This document shows positions 3,765 to 24,254 of a stretch of 64,000 bases of DNA, in pieces (position 1 is the stretch's first letter; the number at the start of each line of letters is the position of its first letter). Origin of the DNA: Bacteriovoracaceae bacterium. Its GTDB lineage: Bacteria; Bdellovibrionota; Bacteriovoracia; Bacteriovoracales; Bacteriovoracaceae. A program made the position numbers and the translations under genes. The notes under the pieces are model-generated. The model made no database searches. It was not told where the DNA came from and was given only the letters and a program-made list of their open reading frames with translations. Location: positions 62,001 through 126,000 of the forward strand of contig CANCFT010000002.1 of assembly GCA_947377285.1 (NCBI GenBank), in the 5' to 3' direction.

Positions 3765-4991
3765 ATGTTTCCAGCACTCAAGCACCGCAATTATAAAATT
3801 TATATGAGTGGACAATTTGTCTCACTCATTGGCACTTGGATGCAACAACTTGCAATGAGCTGGATGGTCTATCGCCTTACGCAATCAGCTTTTTGGTTAG
3901 GGTTTTCAGGATTTGCCTCTCAGTTACCGATGTTTCTTTTTGGTTTATTTGCAGGTGTAATTGTCGATCACGTCGATCGACACAAATTACTTTTGTGGAC
4001 TCAGACATTGTCTGCAATACAAGCATTCACTCTTGCTGCTCTCACTATTTCTGGAAAAATTACACTTACCCAATTAATTATACTTAATTTTACTTTGGGT
4101 CTTATCAATTGTTTTGACATTACAGGACGACAATCTTTTGTCATTCAATTAATCAAACAAAAAAAAGACTTACCGAATGCGATTGCCATCAATTCATCTG
4201 TAGTTAATTTAACTAGGCTCATTGGCCCCGCAATCGCTGGTGCTACAATCGCTACCGTTGGTGAAGGAATGTGTTTTCTTTTAAATGGATTCAGTTATAT
4301 TGCCGTCGTCATCGCACTCTTTAATATTAAAATTGATAAAGTGAAAAAACTTAAATTTAATATTCAAAAAATATTCGATAATATCAAAATTGGATACCGA
4401 TCAACTTTTGATAATCCATCAATTAGTTCGGTAATCTTTTTTGTAGCATTCATTTGCTTTTTTGGGACTCCATATATTAATTTTATCCCGGCCCTGGCTG
4501 CTCAATTGCCAAATGGAGGCGTTCACGCCTTTGCTTGGATATCAGCGAGCACTGGTCTTGGATCATTAGCAGGAGCACTCTATTTGGCCTTGAGAAAAGG
4601 ACCACCGGACTTAGGAGGAATTATCGCTTTTGGTGGATTAACCATGAGTTTGTATCTCGCTATTTTATCCCAAGTCCATCGAATCGAATATGTCCTAATT
4701 GTCGTGTTTATGATTGGGATGGGAATGATGTTACAATTAAGTTCGACTAATTCTGTGATTCAAACTTTAGTGGAAGATGATAAGAGAGGTCGAGTCATGA
4801 GTTTTTTAACATTGGCGCTTTTTGGAACAGCTCCCTTTGGAAGTTTAATGATGGGTTATTCAAGTGAACATTTAGGTCTAGAAAAAACCTTTCTCATCAA
4901 TGGAATTATTTGCTTTTTTGGCTCTATTTTCTTTTTAAGAAGATCATCCGCCATTAATCGACATATCTTAGAACATATAAAGTCTATTTAA
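3765..4991 (+). CDS. MFS transporter, MFS_3/EntS-like family
   Basis: A 408-residue inner-membrane permease with about twelve hydrophobic segments. The opening (ALKHRNYKIYMSGQ, then SLIGTWMQQLAMSWMVYRLT) is typical of the MFS_3 group that includes the enterobactin exporter EntS and many proteobacterial drug or siderophore exporters. The loop VDHVDRHKLL after the third helix corresponds to the conserved MFS motif A. The substrate cannot be told from sequence. It follows the Dph6-like gene closely on the same strand and overlaps by 4 bp, tail to tail, the yaiI gene on the other strand, so there is no room for a conventional terminator between them. Confidence 0.88.
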   Translation: MFPALKHRNYKIYMSGQFVSLIGTWMQQLAMSWMVYRLTQSAFWLGFSGFASQLPMFLFGLFAGVIVDHVDRHKLLLWTQTLSAIQAFTLAALTISGKITLTQLIILNFTLGLINCFDITGRQSFVIQLIKQKKDLPNAIAINSSVVNLTRLIGPAIAGATIATVGEGMCFLLNGFSYIAVVIALFNIKIDKVKKLKFNIQKIFDNIKIGYRSTFDNPSISSVIFFVAFICFFGTPYINFIPALAAQLPNGGVHAFAWISASTGLGSLAGALYLALRKGPPDLGGIIAFGGLTMSLYLAILSQVHRIEYVLIVVFMIGMGMMLQLSSTNSVIQTLVEDDKRGRVMSFLTLALFGTAPFGSLMMGYSSEHLGLEKTFLINGIICFFGSIFFLRRSSAINRHILEHIKSI

Positions 4992-5449
4992 GATAAAAGC
5001 TTGTTTAAAGAATTGGCAAATTGCTGAACATCTTTAGGACCAAATATCGAAGGCCCGCCAGTAATGGTACCACCATCTCTTAGGTCTTTCATAAAATCTC
5101 TCATTGATAAAATTTCACCAATATTTTCTTCTGTGTAAATTTCTCCTCGTGGATTTATGGCAATGGCCATTTTTTCCACGACTTTTGCGGCCAGAGGAAT
5201 ATCTGCGGTAATAACCAAATCATGCATTTTCACATAATCAATAATGTATTGGTCTGCGACATCAGTGCCTTTTGGAACAATAATTAATTGAATTAAATCA
5301 CTATGGGGAATCGCTTGATAAGCATTTGCTACCAATATAAGTGAAATATTTAAACGAAAAGATGTTTTAAAAATAATTTCTTTAACTAATTTTGGACAGG
5401 CATCAGCATCGATCCATATTTTACCTGGTTTAATTTTTAATTTATTCAT
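4988..5449 (-). CDS. yaiI: YaiI/YqxD (DUF188) family protein
   Basis: A 153-residue cytoplasmic protein of the YaiI/YqxD family, with a PIN-like nuclease fold. The family hallmarks are visible: IDADACP near the N-terminus (acidic residues that would bind metal), [10 protein letters not shown], then [10 protein letters not shown] in the middle, NPRGE, and the C-terminal [10 protein letters not shown]. The length is normal for the family. No biochemical role is firmly established; a nuclease activity is only suggested by fold. It is the last gene of the tolC-macA-macB operon: its start codon overlaps the end of macB by 8 bp, so it is probably cotranslated, though its link to efflux is unclear. 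Confidence 0.9.
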
Positions 5450-7400
5450 GTCTTAACGCATCTATGGGATTGAGTAATGAAGCTTTTCTTGCAGGGTAAA
5501 TCCCAAAAATAATACCAATTGAAGCTGAAAAGAAAAAAGATAATATAATAGAAGAAGGAGAAATAGAAGTACTCCATCCAGAAAAGGTATTAATTGCTAC
5601 TGTAATTAGCCAACCTAAAATGATTCCAATGAGACCACCGACAGCACTGACAACCACAGACTCAGCTAAAAACTGAGCAAGAATATCCCATCGCCTAGCT
5701 CCAATTGATTTTCTTAAACCAATCTCTCGGGTCCGCTCTGTCACAGAAACAAGCATAATATTCATGATTCCTATACCACCCACTAAGAGTGAAATGGCCG
5801 CAATAGAAGATAACAAAACTGACATGGTCTGAGAACTTTGTTGAACAGCTGCTTGAATATCGGCCATATTACGAATTTCAAAAGTACTTTTTTGTAAAGC
5901 TGGTGCAACTCGGTGTCGAATATTCATTAATTCGATAATTTTATCTTCTGCCAATTCCATTTTACTTGGGTCAGTAATTTCCAAATCAATGGAATCTACA
6001 TAATCTTTCCCAAGCAATCGATGCATGGCCGTTAAGACAGGAATAATAATCACATCATCTTGATCGCGAAAGCCATTGGCTCCTTTTTCAGGAAGTATGC
6101 CAATAATTTGAAAATTCACTTTATTTATTTTTATCATTTCGCCTAATGGATTTGTATTGCCAAAAATTTCTCTAACGACAGTTAATCCAATGACAGCAAC
6201 CCTAGCTCGTTTAAGGTTATCAGACTCTGTAAAAAATCGACCAATTTCTGGGGTAGCAGTATGAATAGGAGCATAATTAGCAGCACTCCCAACAATTTGA
6301 GTACTCCAGTTTTTATTTTGAAAGGCAACTTGGCCTCGGCCATTAACGTTTGGTGAATCATATTTAATATAATCGAGTTGGTCTTTTAAAAATTGTGCAT
6401 CTTCAATACTTAAGCGGGTCGTAGTTCCTGATTCTTGAGTCACTCCACCTACACGAACTGCTCCAGGTCTAAGTATAAGGAGATTAGATCCAAGGGAAGA
6501 GAGTTGAGTTTCAATTGCTTTCTGAGCTCCTTTTCCAATGGCCAGCATTGCAATAACTGCAGCAACTCCAATCAAGATACCTAACATTGATAAACCAGTA
6601 CGTACTTTATTGGCCGCTAAAGTTTTAAACCCTAAATTTAAATATTCAAAAGCTTCCATAAAAATATTTATTTTTTTTGAAATTGGCTTTATCAATTGAG
6701 AGTTAACAATTTTTTTCTTTTCTGGTAATGGGGATAAACGTTCATCAGACTGTACAATACCATCACGCATACGAATTAAACGCTTCGCTTGCTGGCCGAC
6801 TTCTTCCTCATGAGTAACAATGACAACTGTAATCCCTTGATCATTTAATTCTTTTAAAATTAAAAGAATTTCCTTTTCACTGATTGAATCTAAATTCCCT
6901 GTAGGCTCATCGGCAAAAATAACTTGTGGTTTATTAATCAAAGACCTTGCGATGGCCACTCTTTGTTGCTGGCCTCCCGAGAGTTCATTAGGTTTATGAA
7001 AACTTCTTTGCCCTAAACCAGTTCTCTCTAAAAGACTTACAGCATATGGTTCACCGTCTGTTTGTCTAGAATACAAAAGAGGTAATTTAACATTTTCCAG
7101 AGCACTCATTCTCGGCAGTAAATTAAATTGTTGAAAAATAAATCCTAAAGTCTCTCTTCTTAATATGGCCAAAGCATCTTCAGACAAATGAGAAACCTCT
7201 CTTTCATCAATTTTGTAAGAGCCATTTGTCGGAACATCTAACAAACCTAAAATATGCATTAGAGTTGATTTGCCAGAACCAGAAGGTCCCATAATAGCAA
7301 CGTAATCACCGTCCTCTATCGTAAGACTTATATCGACAAGAGCATTGACAATATTGTCGCCCATCTTATAAGTTTTGTAAATTTTAGATAAACTTAACAT
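5442..7400 (-). CDS. macB: MacB-type ABC exporter (ATPase fused to permease)
   Basis: A 652-residue protein with the full MacB layout. An N-terminal ATPase of about 230 residues has Walker [10 protein letters not shown] near 38-46, signature [14 protein letters not shown] and Walker [13 protein letters not shown]. It is followed by a first membrane helix (about 270-290), a large periplasmic domain, and three C-terminal membrane helices in a FtsX-like domain containing [15 protein letters not shown]. MacB works as a mechanotransmission pump that drives substrates from the periplasm through TolC rather than across the inner membrane. The gene starts directly after the macA stop codon and overlaps yaiI by 8 bp. 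Known MacB substrates include macrolides, lipoproteins and toxins; the one here is unknown. Confidence 0.95.
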
Positions 7401-15859: not shown

Positions 15860-16957
15860 TTAACTTAACTGATTTATCACTTTCTCAATTTCTTGGTCTG
15901 TATTAAAAGCATGCGGGGAAAGCCTGATTCCAGGTCCACGTACAGCAAAGTTGCAACCTATTTCTTCTAACTTCTTAGTGCTATCAACTTTAGGAATAAA
16001 ATTGACTATTGAACTATGATTGTAATGAACATCAAAACCAAGATGTCTTAATCCAGCAGTGAGTTTTTTAGAAAGTCTAATGACTTCTGTTTCAATGACT
16101 TTGACTTTCGTTTTTAAAATCAAATCAACTGAAGCTCCAAGCGCTGTAATTTCTAAAACTTGTTTAGAGCCAGCTTCAAATTTCGAAGCATCTTTTTTGG
16201 GCATACACAATAAGTCGGTAGGATCATCGCAAGTTCCAAAAGTATAGGCCCCTACATTATGCGGCTTAATCAAATTCATATGTTTGATATCTAGAGCTAA
16301 AAAACCTACACCTACAGGAGAAGTTAGCCATTTATGACTTCCTCCTGCCACTGCATCTACACCCCATTCTTTCATTTGAAATGGATGTAGTCCGAATCCT
16401 TGCATAATATCAACAAAGAGAAAGATATTTTTTTCATTGGTAATTTTAGCAAGATTTTGTATATCGGTTTTTGAGCCCGTTAAAAATTGCACCCAAGATA
16501 TCGCCACAACTTTTGTTTTTGCAGTAATACTTTGAATTATTTTTTCAACAGGAGTTGTAAAATCTTTTTCTGATTCAACAATGACTAACTTAGCGCCTGT
16601 GCGTTTAGTTGCCTCTTGCCAAGGATATAAGTTTGAAGCGTATTCTTGGTCCCAAGTAATTACTTCATCTCCTTGATTTAGAGGGAAATGAAAACAAAGC
16701 TGGCTAATTGCGCTTGCAGTACTTTGGAAAAAAGCAACTTCATAGGCTTCGCAACCAATAAGTTTAGATAAAGAAGATCTAGAATGAAGTACATCATTCA
16801 TATAATCATGATCAGTAAAAAAACCTTCTTGGTAAAAGCGCTCTCCCCAATAAAGTATTTTATCACGCGCATCTTTTGAAATAGGAGCAAGACCTGCATT
16901 ATTCAAATGGATTATTTTTTGATTTTGATAAAAAGAATTTTTAAATTGATTTAACAT
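15860..16957 (-). CDS. Class V PLP enzyme, candidate C-S lyase (EgtE/OvoB-like role)
   Basis: A 365-residue fold-type I PLP enzyme of the aminotransferase class V family. The PLP lysine is in GGSHKWLTSPVGVGFL at about residues 202-217; the upstream VDIMQGFGLHPF region supplies the aspartate pairing with the pyridine nitrogen. Class V enzymes such as EgtE cleave the C-S bond of hercynylcysteine sulfoxide; the corresponding OvoB step releases the thiol from histidylcysteine sulfoxide. Its ATG overlaps the end of the OvoA-decarboxylase fusion gene by 7 bp, so the two proteins are almost certainly made together, and a C-S lyase job is the simplest reading. Selenocysteine lyase, kynureninase or isopenicillin-epimerase-like activities remain possible. 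Confidence 0.75.
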   Translation of the reverse strand: MLNQFKNSFYQNQKIIHLNNAGLAPISKDARDKILYWGERFYQEGFFTDHDYMNDVLHSRSSLSKLIGCEAYEVAFFQSTASAISQLCFHFPLNQGDEVITWDQEYASNLYPWQEATKRTGAKLVIVESEKDFTTPVEKIIQSITAKTKVVAISWVQFLTGSKTDIQNLAKITNEKNIFLFVDIMQGFGLHPFQMKEWGVDAVAGGSHKWLTSPVGVGFLALDIKHMNLIKPHNVGAYTFGTCDDPTDLLCMPKKDASKFEAGSKQVLEITALGASVDLILKTKVKVIETEVIRLSKKLTAGLRHLGFDVHYNHSSIVNFIPKVDSTKKLEEIGCNFAVRGPGIRLSPHAFNTDQEIEKVINQLS

Positions 16958-19900
16958 TCGCAGGCCATTTCATCAATTTCAATTAAAGCACTAAGTAATC
17001 TTTCATAGTGAACTCTGTAACCTAAAAGACAAACACGGATGGCCAAATGACCATCGAGCATACACGATGATAAAAACAATGTCCCTTTCGTATTAATTTT
17101 TTTCATCAACTCTTTGGTAGCTTCATCGCCTTTTTTATGGGCAAAAGCTTGGATAGTTAATTCGGGAGAAGAAACGACCACTAAGTCTTTATTCTTTTTT
17201 AATTCTTCACAAAGCCAACTACTCAATTTTAATTTTTCTTCTAGATTTAAAATAAAAGGTGCTATTCCTAATGTTTTAATCGGTAACCAAACTCTGAGTC
17301 CTCGGTAATCACGCGATAGCTCTGGCGAAATATCAGCGTAATCATGGTCTCCCATAGTAGGCTTTGGAGGCATATATGAATCGTCTGAAATATAATCAAA
17401 AGACATATTATTGCCATCTTTAACTAATAAGCATCCTGTACCATAAGGAAGTGAAAGTGCTTTATGTGGATCTAGAGCAATTGAATCAGCACGTTCAATT
17501 CCTTTTAAAAGCTCTCTGCCTTTTTCAGTTAACATAAAAAGAGCGCCATATGCTCCATCTGCATGTAACCACAGATTTTCTTTTTGTGCGATATCCGCCA
17601 ACGTATTTATGTTATCAACGCTTCCTGTTTTTGTTGTCCCGACAGTTCCCACCAAGAAAAAGGGCAAGAGACCATTTGATCTATCTTTTGAAATCATCTC
17701 ATGAAGTGAATGCGAATCAATTTTATATTGAGTTGCTTTTACTAAGCGTAGATTTTCTTTTTTAAAGCCGAGCATAACCCAAGCTTTGGCCACACAATGA
17801 TGGGCTTCAGTAGACATGTATCCAGTCACTTTAGAATAGTCATGGCCTGCAATTTTATTTAAGCGGGCCATGATTAATGCATTCATTGTGGCCGAACTAC
17901 CACCAGTAGTTAAATAACCTAGCGCTAATTTTTCATCGTAACCCATTAGACTTATAAACCATTTGATCACTTCTTGCTCTAAGGCCACAAGTCCTGGGGC
18001 CATCATATAATGCCCAGAAAATGGATTGAGTGTTTGAGAAATTAATTGAGCAGTATTCGAAATTGCATTCCCACCACCTGCAACATAGGCCAGAAATCCA
18101 GGATGACCTGGAAGTTGAGATAATGGGGCCATCTCATGAAAGATTAGATTAAGTAGTGTTTGATAATTTTCTGGGCGCTCTGGAAAATTTTTAGTCATTT
18201 GATAGGGCAAAATAAAATCTTTTTTTAATCCATTTGTATTTGGATCATGAGCAGCCCCCATTGGAGACATGTTTTCAAAATTTTTCATGTAGTCTAGAAC
18301 TTGAACTTGGGTTTGATCGAGAAGAGATTTCATTTCTTCTTGATTCATCTCAAGAGGTTGATCTATTTTTTTCCACCAGTCACTCCCCTTTTGAATTTGG
18401 TCTAAAACATTTTGGCGTCGAGGATGAATATATTCAGCTGATTTTACAATTTTAGTAGAACCATTATCCATACTACCATCTAAAGTAGCCGCAATTCGAA
18501 ATCCACTGTGTTGATTAAAATGAGGTCTAAAATGAAAGCGAGAGTATTGACTTGCTTCAGTCCCTGTACTGATGAATGATCCACCTAAAATCATTTGGTG
18601 TTTGCCATCAAAACAAGGCGTAGAAAAATCGTCATAGAGAGAGTGAATTTGAAATTGGGGTAACGGATTAAACTGGTCTTCAACCCAATGCCAAGTATTT
18701 CCAGATAAAACTTCATTTACGTTCTGAGGTGTCGACCAAATAAAGTTAAAATTTGATTTAAACTCACTTAGATTTTTATAGTCGCTATAGTGTTTCGTCT
18801 GTAAAACTTCATCAATATCTTTGTGTCTGACACAATCATATTCTGCTTCAGTTAATAATCTGTAATGAAGTTTAATTTTTGATTTTTTTTGATCTTCGCT
18901 ATTTTTCCAATTTGTATAGGCAACTGCCTCATGAAAATTGACTTCAACCGGCCAATTCCAAGGCATTGGGATTATCTCAAAAATTGTCCGGAGTTCATAT
19001 TCATGTGAGCCTTCAGGCCCAACACCACACCAAAAAGTAGGTCTTTTGGTGTTTCTAAATTTTCTCCAAAACAATCCTTCTTCTCTCCAGAAATTATCAT
19101 TGACATAAGCTCCACTTGAGACAAATTCAAAATATTCACGGTTAGTTATTTGGTATTTTGTATATTGAAAATCTTGAATTTTTACAATTCGTTCTCCATA
19201 TTCGTTATCCCAGCCGAATGATGGAGTCGATTCTGATTTTCCAATTTTAACAGTTTTGCCAGATTCTTTAACCCAAGAATTTTCTAAGACAGAATTATCA
19301 TTGCGGCTGGGATGCATTGGCGCCCAATATTTTGGTGTTTCTACAAACTCAATTGGCAATTCACGGATTAACACACTTGATGTTTCGAAATGAATTTTTT
19401 CATGCTCCATTCCCATCCATAATGCCCACCAAGGTGAATGCATAAGTGGTTTAGGGCCATTTCTTGCTCTATCTAAAAAATCTAAATCTGGATGAGTTTT
19501 AATTGTTTCAGTTACTAAACTGTAGACTATTTTTCGGTATGAATGAACTGCTTCAACATTTGGCCACTCCATTTCATTTTTACTCATATCATCCCAAGAC
19601 ATTTCATCAACACCCGTTTCTAAAACTTTTTCTAAATAAAGATTGATAGGGTTGGGATAAAATCCAGCAAGGCGTAATTTATTTAAATAAAGTACGGCCG
19701 GGTGTCCGTAATAAAAAATTAATGGATGTCGAAGTCCGTGATAGGGAGGGCGCTTATAAACGTCTTCAGTTTTTAAACCTTGAAATAATATTTCAGTTAA
19801 AGTCCAAGAATTATTAAAATAGTCGAGAACATCTTGGCGAGAACAAATTTCTAAATTAAGCAGTGGAAGTGCTACTACACATTGGCGATTTTGATCAAAC

Positions 19901-20028
19901 CCTGGACAATTTTCAGGAGCAAGCCCCGTCCACCATCTTTCACCAAAATGATTTTTCAACTCAGGTAAATATTTTTTTTCGGCGCGAGCTTTAGTAAGAT
20001 TTGGATTTCTAGTAATTGAAACAGTCAT
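16951..20028 (-). CDS. ovoA: OvoA-type sulfoxide synthase fused to a PLP decarboxylase
   Basis: A 1025-residue two-part enzyme. The ATG at 20028 has GGAG about 8 bp upstream. Residues 1-230 form the DinB-like domain with HX3HXE (H209, H213, E215) and a further His near 109, the non-haem iron ligands. Residues about 262-513 form the FGE-sulfatase/EgtB-type domain ending in GGSFIS and FHFRPHFNQHSGFRIA. Together they match 5-histidylcysteine sulfoxide synthase (OvoA), which couples histidine and cysteine with oxygen. Canonical OvoA then carries a methyltransferase; here residues about 555-1025 are a group II PLP decarboxylase (TTGGSSATMNAL, HADGAYG, DPHKALSLPYGTG with K856). The reading frame is uninterrupted, so this is a real fusion. 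The product may be a decarboxylated thiol-imidazole. Confidence 0.88.
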   Translation of the reverse strand: MTVSITRNPNLTKARAEKKYLPELKNHFGERWWTGLAPENCPGFDQNRQCVVALPLLNLEICSRQDVLDYFNNSWTLTEILFQGLKTEDVYKRPPYHGLRHPLIFYYGHPAVLYLNKLRLAGFYPNPINLYLEKVLETGVDEMSWDDMSKNEMEWPNVEAVHSYRKIVYSLVTETIKTHPDLDFLDRARNGPKPLMHSPWWALWMGMEHEKIHFETSSVLIRELPIEFVETPKYWAPMHPSRNDNSVLENSWVKESGKTVKIGKSESTPSFGWDNEYGERIVKIQDFQYTKYQITNREYFEFVSSGAYVNDNFWREEGLFWRKFRNTKRPTFWCGVGPEGSHEYELRTIFEIIPMPWNWPVEVNFHEAVAYTNWKNSEDQKKSKIKLHYRLLTEAEYDCVRHKDIDEVLQTKHYSDYKNLSEFKSNFNFIWSTPQNVNEVLSGNTWHWVEDQFNPLPQFQIHSLYDDFSTPCFDGKHQMILGGSFISTGTEASQYSRFHFRPHFNQHSGFRIAATLDGSMDNGSTKIVKSAEYIHPRRQNVLDQIQKGSDWWKKIDQPLEMNQEEMKSLLDQTQVQVLDYMKNFENMSPMGAAHDPNTNGLKKDFILPYQMTKNFPERPENYQTLLNLIFHEMAPLSQLPGHPGFLAYVAGGGNAISNTAQLISQTLNPFSGHYMMAPGLVALEQEVIKWFISLMGYDEKLALGYLTTGGSSATMNALIMARLNKIAGHDYSKVTGYMSTEAHHCVAKAWVMLGFKKENLRLVKATQYKIDSHSLHEMISKDRSNGLLPFFLVGTVGTTKTGSVDNINTLADIAQKENLWLHADGAYGALFMLTEKGRELLKGIERADSIALDPHKALSLPYGTGCLLVKDGNNMSFDYISDDSYMPPKPTMGDHDYADISPELSRDYRGLRVWLPIKTLGIAPFILNLEEKLKLSSWLCEELKKNKDLVVVSSPELTIQAFAHKKGDEATKELMKKINTKGTLFLSSCMLDGHLAIRVCLLGYRVHYERLLSALIEIDEMACEC

Positions 20029-20144
20029 AGGTTTTCTCCAACAATGATCCAATAATTATCAATCATTCCTAGCGATTTGTCATGGGTGACTTGCTCTAAA
20101 ACTCTACTTGTATAAGCATTGTTGACTAAAACATTCCAGATCTT

Positions 20145-20207: not shown

Positions 20208-21254
20208 ATGATAAACACTTCTGGATACGCTGCTTTTAAATCAAGCGGTCAACTTGCACCCTTTGAATTTAAAAGAAGAGAATTAAAACCAAATGATATC
20301 CTAATTGAGATTGATTTTTGTGGAGTTTGTCATTCTGATATTCACCAAGTCAAAAATGAATGGGGAAACGCCGAATACCCAATGGTTCCTGGCCATGAAA
20401 TAGTAGGTCATATTACTAAAATTGGCACTGCCGTAAAAAAATTTAGTGTCGGCGATCTTGCTGGAGTCGGTTGCCTCGTTGATTCATGCCGAACTTGCTC
20501 TAATTGCCAAGAAGGTTTTCAGCAATTTTGTTTAAATGGGTCTGTTGGTACCTATAATAGTTTAGAAAAAGATGGTGAGACCCGAACCTTTGGTGGTTAT
20601 TCAAAATGTATTGTCGTCGATCAAGATTTTGCCTTAATCATCCCTAAAAATTTAGACTTAAAAACGGTAGCCCCTCTATTATGTGCAGGAATTACAACTT
20701 ATTCTCCCCTTCGTCATTGGGGAGTTGGCCCAGGCCAAAAAGTTGGTGTCGTGGGTCTTGGTGGACTTGGACATATGGCCGTAAAATTTGCTCATTCCTT
20801 TGGAGCTCATGTCACAGTTTTTACACGTTCTGAAAATAAAAAAGCTGATGCACTAAAACTAGGTGCAGACGAAGTTGCACTAACTAATGACCCTCAAAAA
20901 GTTCTCGCAGATCACGCTGGAAAATTTGATTTTATTCTAGATACTGTTTCAGCACCCCATGATCTCAATCTTTATCTGCAACTACTTAAACGCGATGGAA
21001 AAATGGTCTTAGTTGGCCTGCCAGAAATTCCACCTAATATTGAAGTGGGTAATCTTATTTTTGGAAGAAAAACTTTAGCAGGCTCACTTATCGGTGGAAT
21101 CCCAGAAACTCAAGAGATGCTATATTACTGTGGAGTAAATAATATTGGATGCGATATTGAATTAATTCATCCAAGTAAGATCAATGTAGCTTTTGAAAGA
21201 ACTCTTAATAGTGATGTGAAATACCGTTTTGTTTTAGATATGAAAGCTATTTAA
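20208..21254 (+). CDS. Zinc-dependent NADP(H) alcohol dehydrogenase (YahK/cinnamyl-alcohol type)
   Basis: A 348-residue medium-chain dehydrogenase. Catalytic zinc ligands are visible in CGVCHSDIH near 38-46 and GHEIVG near 63; the structural zinc site is the four-Cys group CRTCSNCQEGFQQFC near 95-109. The cofactor fold has GLGGLGHMAVKFA near 181-193, and the following TVFTRS, without an acidic residue at the strand end, favours NADPH. It closely resembles YahK and cinnamyl alcohol dehydrogenase-like aldehyde reductases, which reduce a wide range of aldehydes in the cytoplasm. It has its own promoter and a strong AAGGAG site, is divergent from the ovoA fusion gene, and overlaps the AlkD-like gene tail to tail by 8 bp. 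Confidence 0.92.
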   Translation: MINTSGYAAFKSSGQLAPFEFKRRELKPNDILIEIDFCGVCHSDIHQVKNEWGNAEYPMVPGHEIVGHITKIGTAVKKFSVGDLAGVGCLVDSCRTCSNCQEGFQQFCLNGSVGTYNSLEKDGETRTFGGYSKCIVVDQDFALIIPKNLDLKTVAPLLCAGITTYSPLRHWGVGPGQKVGVVGLGGLGHMAVKFAHSFGAHVTVFTRSENKKADALKLGADEVALTNDPQKVLADHAGKFDFILDTVSAPHDLNLYLQLLKRDGKMVLVGLPEIPPNIEVGNLIFGRKTLAGSLIGGIPETQEMLYYCGVNNIGCDIELIHPSKINVAFERTLNSDVKYRFVLDMKAI

Positions 21255-23054: not shown

Positions 23055-24254
23055 ATGAATTTAAAAAATAATGCCGCCCTACTTACTGTTTTGCTAATTG
23101 TTTTTGTAGATATTCTCGGCTTTACTATCATGATTCCACTTCTCCCTTTTTATGCAGAAAGCTTGGGCGCATCTGCTTTTACAGTTGGGATGCTTTCATC
23201 TGTTTATGGTCTATGTTCTTTGATTTCTGGACCCATTCTAGGTGAACTCTCTGATCGGTATGGAAGAAGAAAGATATTGCTCTTAAGCCAAGTTGGAACT
23301 TGTATTGGCTTTATCATTATGGCCATGTCCAAAATCTTATGGGTTGTTTTTCTGTCTCGAATTATTGACGGAATTACAGCTGGAAATATGACTGTTGCCC
23401 AGGCCTATATTTCTGACGTCACAGCTCCAAAAGACCGAACGAGGGCCATGGGAATGATTGGTGCTTCTTTTGGGTTGGGGTTTATTTTGGGCCCTGCCAT
23501 TTCAGGATTATTAGTCCAATTTGGTCATGCTGCTCCCATTTGGGCCTCTGCCTTTTTATCTTTTTTAAGTATCGTAGGAACAATCTTTTTTTTAAAAGAT
23601 GTTTTGGTGCCTCTTGAAAGTAAAAATAAAAAAGGAGTCAAAGAAAAACTTAAAAGTTATCTAGGACTACTTAATACTCCAGTGTTGAAAGAATGCTTTA
23701 GTGTGTTTTTTATTTTTTCAATCAGTTTTTCACTTTATATGTCAGGTTTTGCTCTTTACTGTGAAAGGGCGCTAGTGTGGCAAGGGCATCCTTTTACAGC
23801 TAAAGAAGTCGGTATACTTCTGTCTTATTTAGGAATTATTTCTTTAATTATTCAATTATTTATTATGGGTCCTTTAGTCATTAAATTAGGTGAAATCAAA
23901 ATAATGCTGCTTGGATTTTCTTCAACGGCCATCGCCTTAATTGTCATGGGATTTTCTCCAGTACTTTCAATTTTTTTTCTAGGTATATCTATTAACACTT
24001 TTGGCAACGCTATTTTAAGACCGGCCATTGCGGGACTTCTTTCACAAAATGCAAGCCCTGCCCATCAAGGTTTAGTTTTTGGACTTAATCAGACACTTAT
24101 GTCTGTTGCTCAAATAATTTGTCCACTCGTTAGTGGATATTTTTTAGCTAACAATTGGACACTGCCTTGGTGTTTACTTATCTCAGGATTTTCAATTATT
24201 GGATTATTAGTTGGATCTCTTGCTTCAAAAAAAATACATTTAAAAAGTACTTAA
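23055..24254 (+). CDS. MFS exporter of the TetA-like (DHA1) group
   Basis: A 399-residue inner-membrane transporter with twelve predicted helices. The N-terminus LIVFVDILGFTIMIPLLPFYAE and the loop GELSDRYGRRKILLLSQ carry the DHA1 hallmark: motif A with the GxxSDRxGRR pattern. A later ILGPAISGLL segment fits motif C of proton antiporters. This group exports tetracyclines and other small drugs in exchange for protons; the substrate here is not known. It is coupled to the upstream ykgJ-like gene with a 15-bp gap. A 114-bp intergenic region follows. Confidence 0.9.
   Translation: MNLKNNAALLTVLLIVFVDILGFTIMIPLLPFYAESLGASAFTVGMLSSVYGLCSLISGPILGELSDRYGRRKILLLSQVGTCIGFIIMAMSKILWVVFLSRIIDGITAGNMTVAQAYISDVTAPKDRTRAMGMIGASFGLGFILGPAISGLLVQFGHAAPIWASAFLSFLSIVGTIFFLKDVLVPLESKNKKGVKEKLKSYLGLLNTPVLKECFSVFFIFSISFSLYMSGFALYCERALVWQGHPFTAKEVGILLSYLGIISLIIQLFIMGPLVIKLGEIKIMLLGFSSTAIALIVMGFSPVLSIFFLGISINTFGNAILRPAIAGLLSQNASPAHQGLVFGLNQTLMSVAQIICPLVSGYFLANNWTLPWCLLISGFSIIGLLVGSLASKKIHLKST

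Follow-up and report, generated by a model that had tools for sequence, protein, structure and literature searches.

What does an OvoA sulfoxide synthase make when a decarboxylase stands in place of its methyltransferase? The question is raised by a gene in a 64,000-nucleotide stretch of a Bacteriovoracaceae bacterium genome (contig CANCFT010000002.1, positions 62,001 to 126,000; hereafter "the window"), where one 1025-residue frame joins an OvoA part to a group II decarboxylase dependent on pyridoxal 5'-phosphate (PLP). We consider it quite likely that the pathway served by this fusion, in concert with an adjacent class-V PLP enzyme, ends in 5-thiohistamine, whatever the order of its steps.

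The fusion had been proposed from the nucleotide sequence alone, with its strand (minus) unstated, and profile searches bear it out. TIGR04344 (ovoA_Nterm) matched residues 61–512 with 526.9 bits (cut-off 400), Pfam DinB_2 and FGE-sulfatase were both over threshold, and the iron motif HX3HXE reads EHEKIHFE (H209, H213 and E215). The C-terminal part matched Pfam Pyridoxal_deC over residues 611–963 (178.5 bits, cut-off 27) and contains the Schiff-base lysine, K856, within DPHKALSLPYGTG, confirming the full group II decarboxylase that had been claimed. A profile search found no ovoA_Cterm methyltransferase domain in the 1025-residue protein, and every catalytic decarboxylase residue is present, which supports the view that a decarboxylase occupies the methyltransferase's place on OvoA.

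The fused PLP part looks like an active group II decarboxylase. Its catalytic set (K856, D824, H743 and Y885) is invariant among fused forms; by alignment, the Schiff-base lysine, the PLP-binding aspartate and the stacking histidine are common to fused proteins and stand-alone relatives, and the catalytic-loop tyrosine occurs in all 25 fused rows and in 11 of the 12 stand-alone rows. Y885 was placed by alignments to tyrosine and tryptophan decarboxylases, and the roles of the corresponding pair in DOPA decarboxylase, His192 and Tyr332, have been described (PMC9121088). A model of the domain (mean predicted local distance difference test score, pLDDT, 78.6; predicted template modelling score 0.82), used for fold only, returned nearly exclusively group II decarboxylases among its top Foldseek matches. 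The best was the R. gnavus tryptophan decarboxylase 4obu (E 1e-31, template modelling score 0.72–0.74), with a high root-mean-square deviation that probably reflects low-confidence loops.

A search for two-domain proteins and a tree of the OvoA part, both proposed in the sequence-only reading, speak to the age and integrity of the fusion. Across a survey set of 369 Bdellovibrionota genomes the fusion locus was found in 24 (22 full-length, 2 broken), including every one of the 14 genomes from the window's genus; the remaining fusions are patchy among Bdellovibrio-side genera and groups, and include the complete chromosome CP025734. Fused homologues in independent genomes share 50–83% identity, a recurrence that argues against a join by chance or by assembly. 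The ratio of nonsynonymous to synonymous substitution rates (dN/dS) is about 0.04–0.12 with dS near saturation, indicating purifying selection on both parts, and on the strength of this ratio, the 24 genomes and the complete chromosome we reject an assembly artefact or chance association of domains. One broken copy is cut by a contig end (genome G012) and the other by an IS4 element (genome G007, locus L033). In L033, an IS4-family transposase whose terminal inverted repeats measure 41 nt lies inside the OvoA part (locus positions 4414–6000), and the gene is also frame-broken further along, so that this copy looks disrupted.

The OvoA tree groups the fused forms in one clade, the sole exception inside it being a fused copy cut by a contig end (L016). 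The methyltransferase is found in the sister of this clade and in most of the remaining OvoA rows, so that its replacement by the decarboxylase is most simply a single event, and the fusion would have arisen just once, from a methyltransferase-type OvoA. Fused forms are likewise one clade in the decarboxylase-part tree, set off by a long stem (1.2 changes per column), with the frame-broken L033 copy inside it. A separate pattern scan of one genome per species yielded 75 loci, none with a fusion outside Bdellovibrionota, in a scan of limited sensitivity and with no search centred on other phyla. In Actinophytocola xanthii (locus L044, 5824–12411), an OvoA-methyltransferase gene is followed by a 664-residue gene with no Pfam match and then by a stand-alone decarboxylase that shares 36% identity with the fused domain; OvoA may have become associated with a decarboxylase independently here.

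The sequence-only reading missed the neighbour whose gene overlaps the fusion stop. Every intact fusion has this class-V PLP gene directly beside it, at a spacing of -85 to +3 bp, and no other neighbour of the fusion is conserved from genus to genus; a search for a conserved third gene found none. In family f8, short OvoA genes with neither a decarboxylase nor a methyltransferase are followed by a class-V homologue (257–327 bits), an arrangement suggesting that the enzyme serves OvoA independently of the decarboxylase. The active-site residues of EgtE are Tyr106, Asp180, Gln183, Lys203 and Arg348 (PMC10805701), and their equivalents, Tyr106, Asp183, Gln186, Lys209 and Arg345, occur in 23–24 of 24 class-V homologues; the first four were placed via an alignment to SufS and Arg345 by eye, rather than by direct alignment to EgtE. 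The class-V enzyme is thus the likely C-S lyase of the pathway.

Two other assignments for this enzyme were discarded: a cysteine desulfurase of the SufS/IscS kind, because there is no conserved catalytic cysteine near the C-terminus (C335 is present in 11 of 24 homologues, with isoleucine or valine in the others and no later cysteine), and a PatB-type lyase of the class I/II aminotransferase fold, because the gene is class V. Elsewhere in the phylum the gene after OvoA encodes in some cases a PatB C-S lyase or a different enzyme of the aminotransferase fold, and a true PatB follows a methyltransferase-type OvoA in genome G061. In genome G065 (locus L126, 3324–7047), an OvoA whose methyltransferase domain scores weakly, under the cut-off, precedes genes for a GNAT acetyltransferase and for a class-V PLP enzyme, an arrangement resembling the N-acetyl-5-thiohistidine route. 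A histone-deacetylase-family gene overlaps the end of the class-V gene in one Bdellovibrionales genome only (locus L014, 10214–11122).

For the pathway itself we infer every reaction, the decarboxylase substrate and the step order. The OvoA part would join L-histidine and L-cysteine with O2 into 5-histidylcysteine sulfoxide, the class-V enzyme would cleave the C-S bond of this sulfoxide to give 5-thiohistidine, pyruvate and ammonia, and the fused PLP part would decarboxylate 5-thiohistidine to 5-thiohistamine (4-(2-aminoethyl)-imidazole-5-thiol). Catalytic residues for all three activities are intact. Since the conserved class-V enzyme most likely performs C-S cleavage as the second step, decarboxylation would come third, and the earlier statement that it is the second step is probably wrong. 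The accompanying claim that the pathway does not end in ovothiol fared better: the methyltransferase domain has been replaced by a decarboxylase with all of its catalytic residues, and TIGR04345 (ovoA_Cterm) had no over-cut-off match in the window's genome or in any of the 14 genus genomes, which disfavours ovothiol. We lean slightly towards a two-gene operon for decarboxylated 5-thiohistidine in which decarboxylation of 5-thiohistidine is the last step. That Bdellovibrio-like bacteria have a dedicated pathway of three activities and two genes to a new low-molecular-weight thiol, 5-thiohistamine, in any step order, seems rather probable.

Several observations weigh against this pathway. The EgtE equivalog TIGR04343 gave the class-V enzyme 56.5 bits, with a cut-off of 400. 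The nearest stand-alone decarboxylases (37–42% identity) have no substrate assignment, and one Streptomyces relative adjoins an arogenate/prephenate dehydrogenase gene. The full-length AlphaFold model of the fusion (pLDDT 64) was too poor for judging domain contact and was discarded, the domain model being taken instead.

Table 1. Positions within the window of the fusion gene, its class-V neighbour and their functional residues.
Feature	Coordinates	Strand	Remarks
OvoA-decarboxylase fusion coding sequence, 1025 residues	16951..20028	minus	ATG at 20028, stop 16951-16953
GGAG, likely ribosome-binding site of the fusion gene	20036..20039	minus	read in sequence
OvoA sulfoxide-synthase part, about residues 1-530	18439..20028	minus	DinB_2 71-216, FGE-sulfatase 260-513, TIGR04344 61-512
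HX3HXE iron motif, H209-E215	19384..19404	minus	invariant in 18 fused homologues
Group II PLP decarboxylase part, residues 548-1025	16954..18387	minus	Pyridoxal_deC 611-963
DPHK with Schiff-base lysine K856	17461..17472	minus	K856 invariant among fused proteins and stand-alone relatives
Catalytic-loop tyrosine Y885	17374..17376	minus	25/25 fused rows; aligns with Tyr332 of DOPA decarboxylase
Class-V PLP enzyme, 365 residues, probable C-S lyase (OvoB/EgtE role)	15860..16957	minus	7-bp overlap with fusion gene
Schiff-base lysine K209 of class-V enzyme	16331..16333	minus	24/24 homologues

Two further genes lie nearby in the window. A divergent Ahr-like zinc alcohol dehydrogenase gene (20208–21254) is upstream of the fusion and is kept in only some members of the genus, and a major facilitator superfamily transporter (23055–24254) is nearest to efflux pumps of the Tet(A)/Tet(B)/Tet(C) type, under the curated cut-off.

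Homology does not point to a substrate for the decarboxylase, since the named substrate equivalogs (diaminobutyrate, aspartate, tyrosine, histidine and glutamate) were all far under cut-off. The same product could be reached in another order: histidine would be decarboxylated to histamine first, OvoA would couple histamine with cysteine, and the class-V enzyme would free thiohistamine, or the sulfoxide would be the species decarboxylated. By our own reading of the alignment, S905 of the fusion falls at the position of Ser354 in human histidine decarboxylase, a residue that the title of Komori 2012 names as setting the specificity of that enzyme. This serine may not be specific, however, because serine or threonine occupies the position in all stand-alone relatives sampled, and the bacterial histidine decarboxylase equivalog NF002748 matched the fusion with only 83.8 bits against a cut-off of 305. 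Decarboxylation first is nonetheless a live rival, because a characterised OvoA accepts histamine in vitro according to the account in PMC9103826, which cites Mashabela and Seebeck 2013. We judge such a reordering unlikely and continue to place decarboxylation after C-S cleavage.

Less probable still is a decarboxylase whose substrate is some unrelated amino acid, with the fusion serving only to co-express two enzymes. The nearest relatives of the decarboxylase are indeed stand-alone enzymes with no adjacent OvoA, but the fusion, a single event, has persisted in genera that have diverged, in every case accompanied by the lyase gene and lacking the methyltransferase. Moreover, residues Q638, P640, G641, N654, Q661, T666, H673, M886 and P888 have become fixed in the fused clade, whereas stand-alone relatives seldom or never carry them. 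By alignment these positions sit in the catalytic loop and in strand-loop segments, which make up the substrate side in relatives, a placement we take from the alignment and from the DOPA decarboxylase active site rather than from a ligand-bound structure. Compared with its stand-alone relatives, the fused decarboxylase looks re-tooled.

The nearest solved structure to the OvoA part is OvoA 8khq (322 bits), with type IV EgtB structures close behind (303 and 286 bits), and an EgtD-family gene is present in 4 of the 14 genus genomes; both facts would suit an enzyme functionally like type IV EgtB, placing sulfur on C2 to give a 2-thiol. However, the motifs YDDFSTP and GGSFIS agree with 8khq and not with the YEDNSAP and GGAWVT of EgtB-IV, and no EgtD-family gene was found in the window's genome and nine others of the genus, so that hercynine is not expected there and free histidine is the likely substrate. 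A 2-thiol is therefore very doubtful; the OvoA part is best read as an OvoA sulfoxide synthase, with C5 regioselectivity predicted solely from its motif similarity to 8khq. Equally improbable is a fused PLP part that acts as a C-S lyase replacing OvoB and leaves 5-thiohistidine as the product: OvoA-OvoB fusions are known in hydrozoans (PMC9103826) and OvoB-type enzymes use PLP, but this domain belongs to the group II decarboxylases, a family other than the PatB-type lyases, has kept the loop tyrosine, and need not be a lyase given the separate EgtE-like enzyme, the likely C-S lyase, beside every intact fusion.

The fusion pathway appears to be a new variant of the OvoA pathway. Our literature search found no description of an OvoA-decarboxylase fusion or of thiohistamine; subscription papers on OvoA diversity lay outside that search, and an earlier description is possible. 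If correct, a branch with a decarboxylation step would bring a new natural thiol together with a self-contained pair of genes for making and testing it, and 5-thiohistamine would be ovothiol's decarboxylated relative, bearing a free cationic amine. It would also be another case of OvoA re-tooled toward a different end product, with a bearing on the cellular role of 5-thiohistidines. A role for the thiol as a glutathione replacement was considered and is not supported: a GshB-like gene is present (158–164 bits, under the equivalog cut-offs).

Compared with group II decarboxylases such as 4obu and those for DOPA and histidine, the fused domain shares the fold, Schiff-base lysine, PLP-stacking histidine and catalytic-loop tyrosine, but it is joined to OvoA, has clade-specific substrate-side residues and matches no named substrate equivalog. 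The class-V neighbour likewise has the fold of the ergothioneine C-S lyase EgtE and its set of tyrosine, aspartate, glutamine, lysine and arginine, yet it scores far under the EgtE equivalog cut-off and is coupled with OvoA rather than EgtB. Hydrozoan OvoA-OvoB proteins (PMC9103826) also join OvoA to a PLP enzyme, although that partner is the OvoB lyase, whereas here it is a decarboxylase and the lyase has a gene of its own. Enzymes have been described for two fates of 5-thiohistidine, methylation and N-acetylation (PMC12631010); the latter, the 5THNAT route of Proteiniphilum, resembles the proposed pathway in its non-ovothiol outcome and in an OvoA sometimes without the methyltransferase domain, but there a separate GNAT enzyme acetylates, whereas here, in another phylum, a fused enzyme would decarboxylate. 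With the ovothiol A pathway (OvoA, OvoB, and OvoC or the methyltransferase domain) the locus shares the OvoA N-terminal domain, the iron motif and a nearby gene for a PLP C-S lyase. It differs in carrying a group II decarboxylase for the methyltransferase domain and a class-V, EgtE-like lyase instead of a PatB-type one, in a genus without ovoA_Cterm over cut-off.

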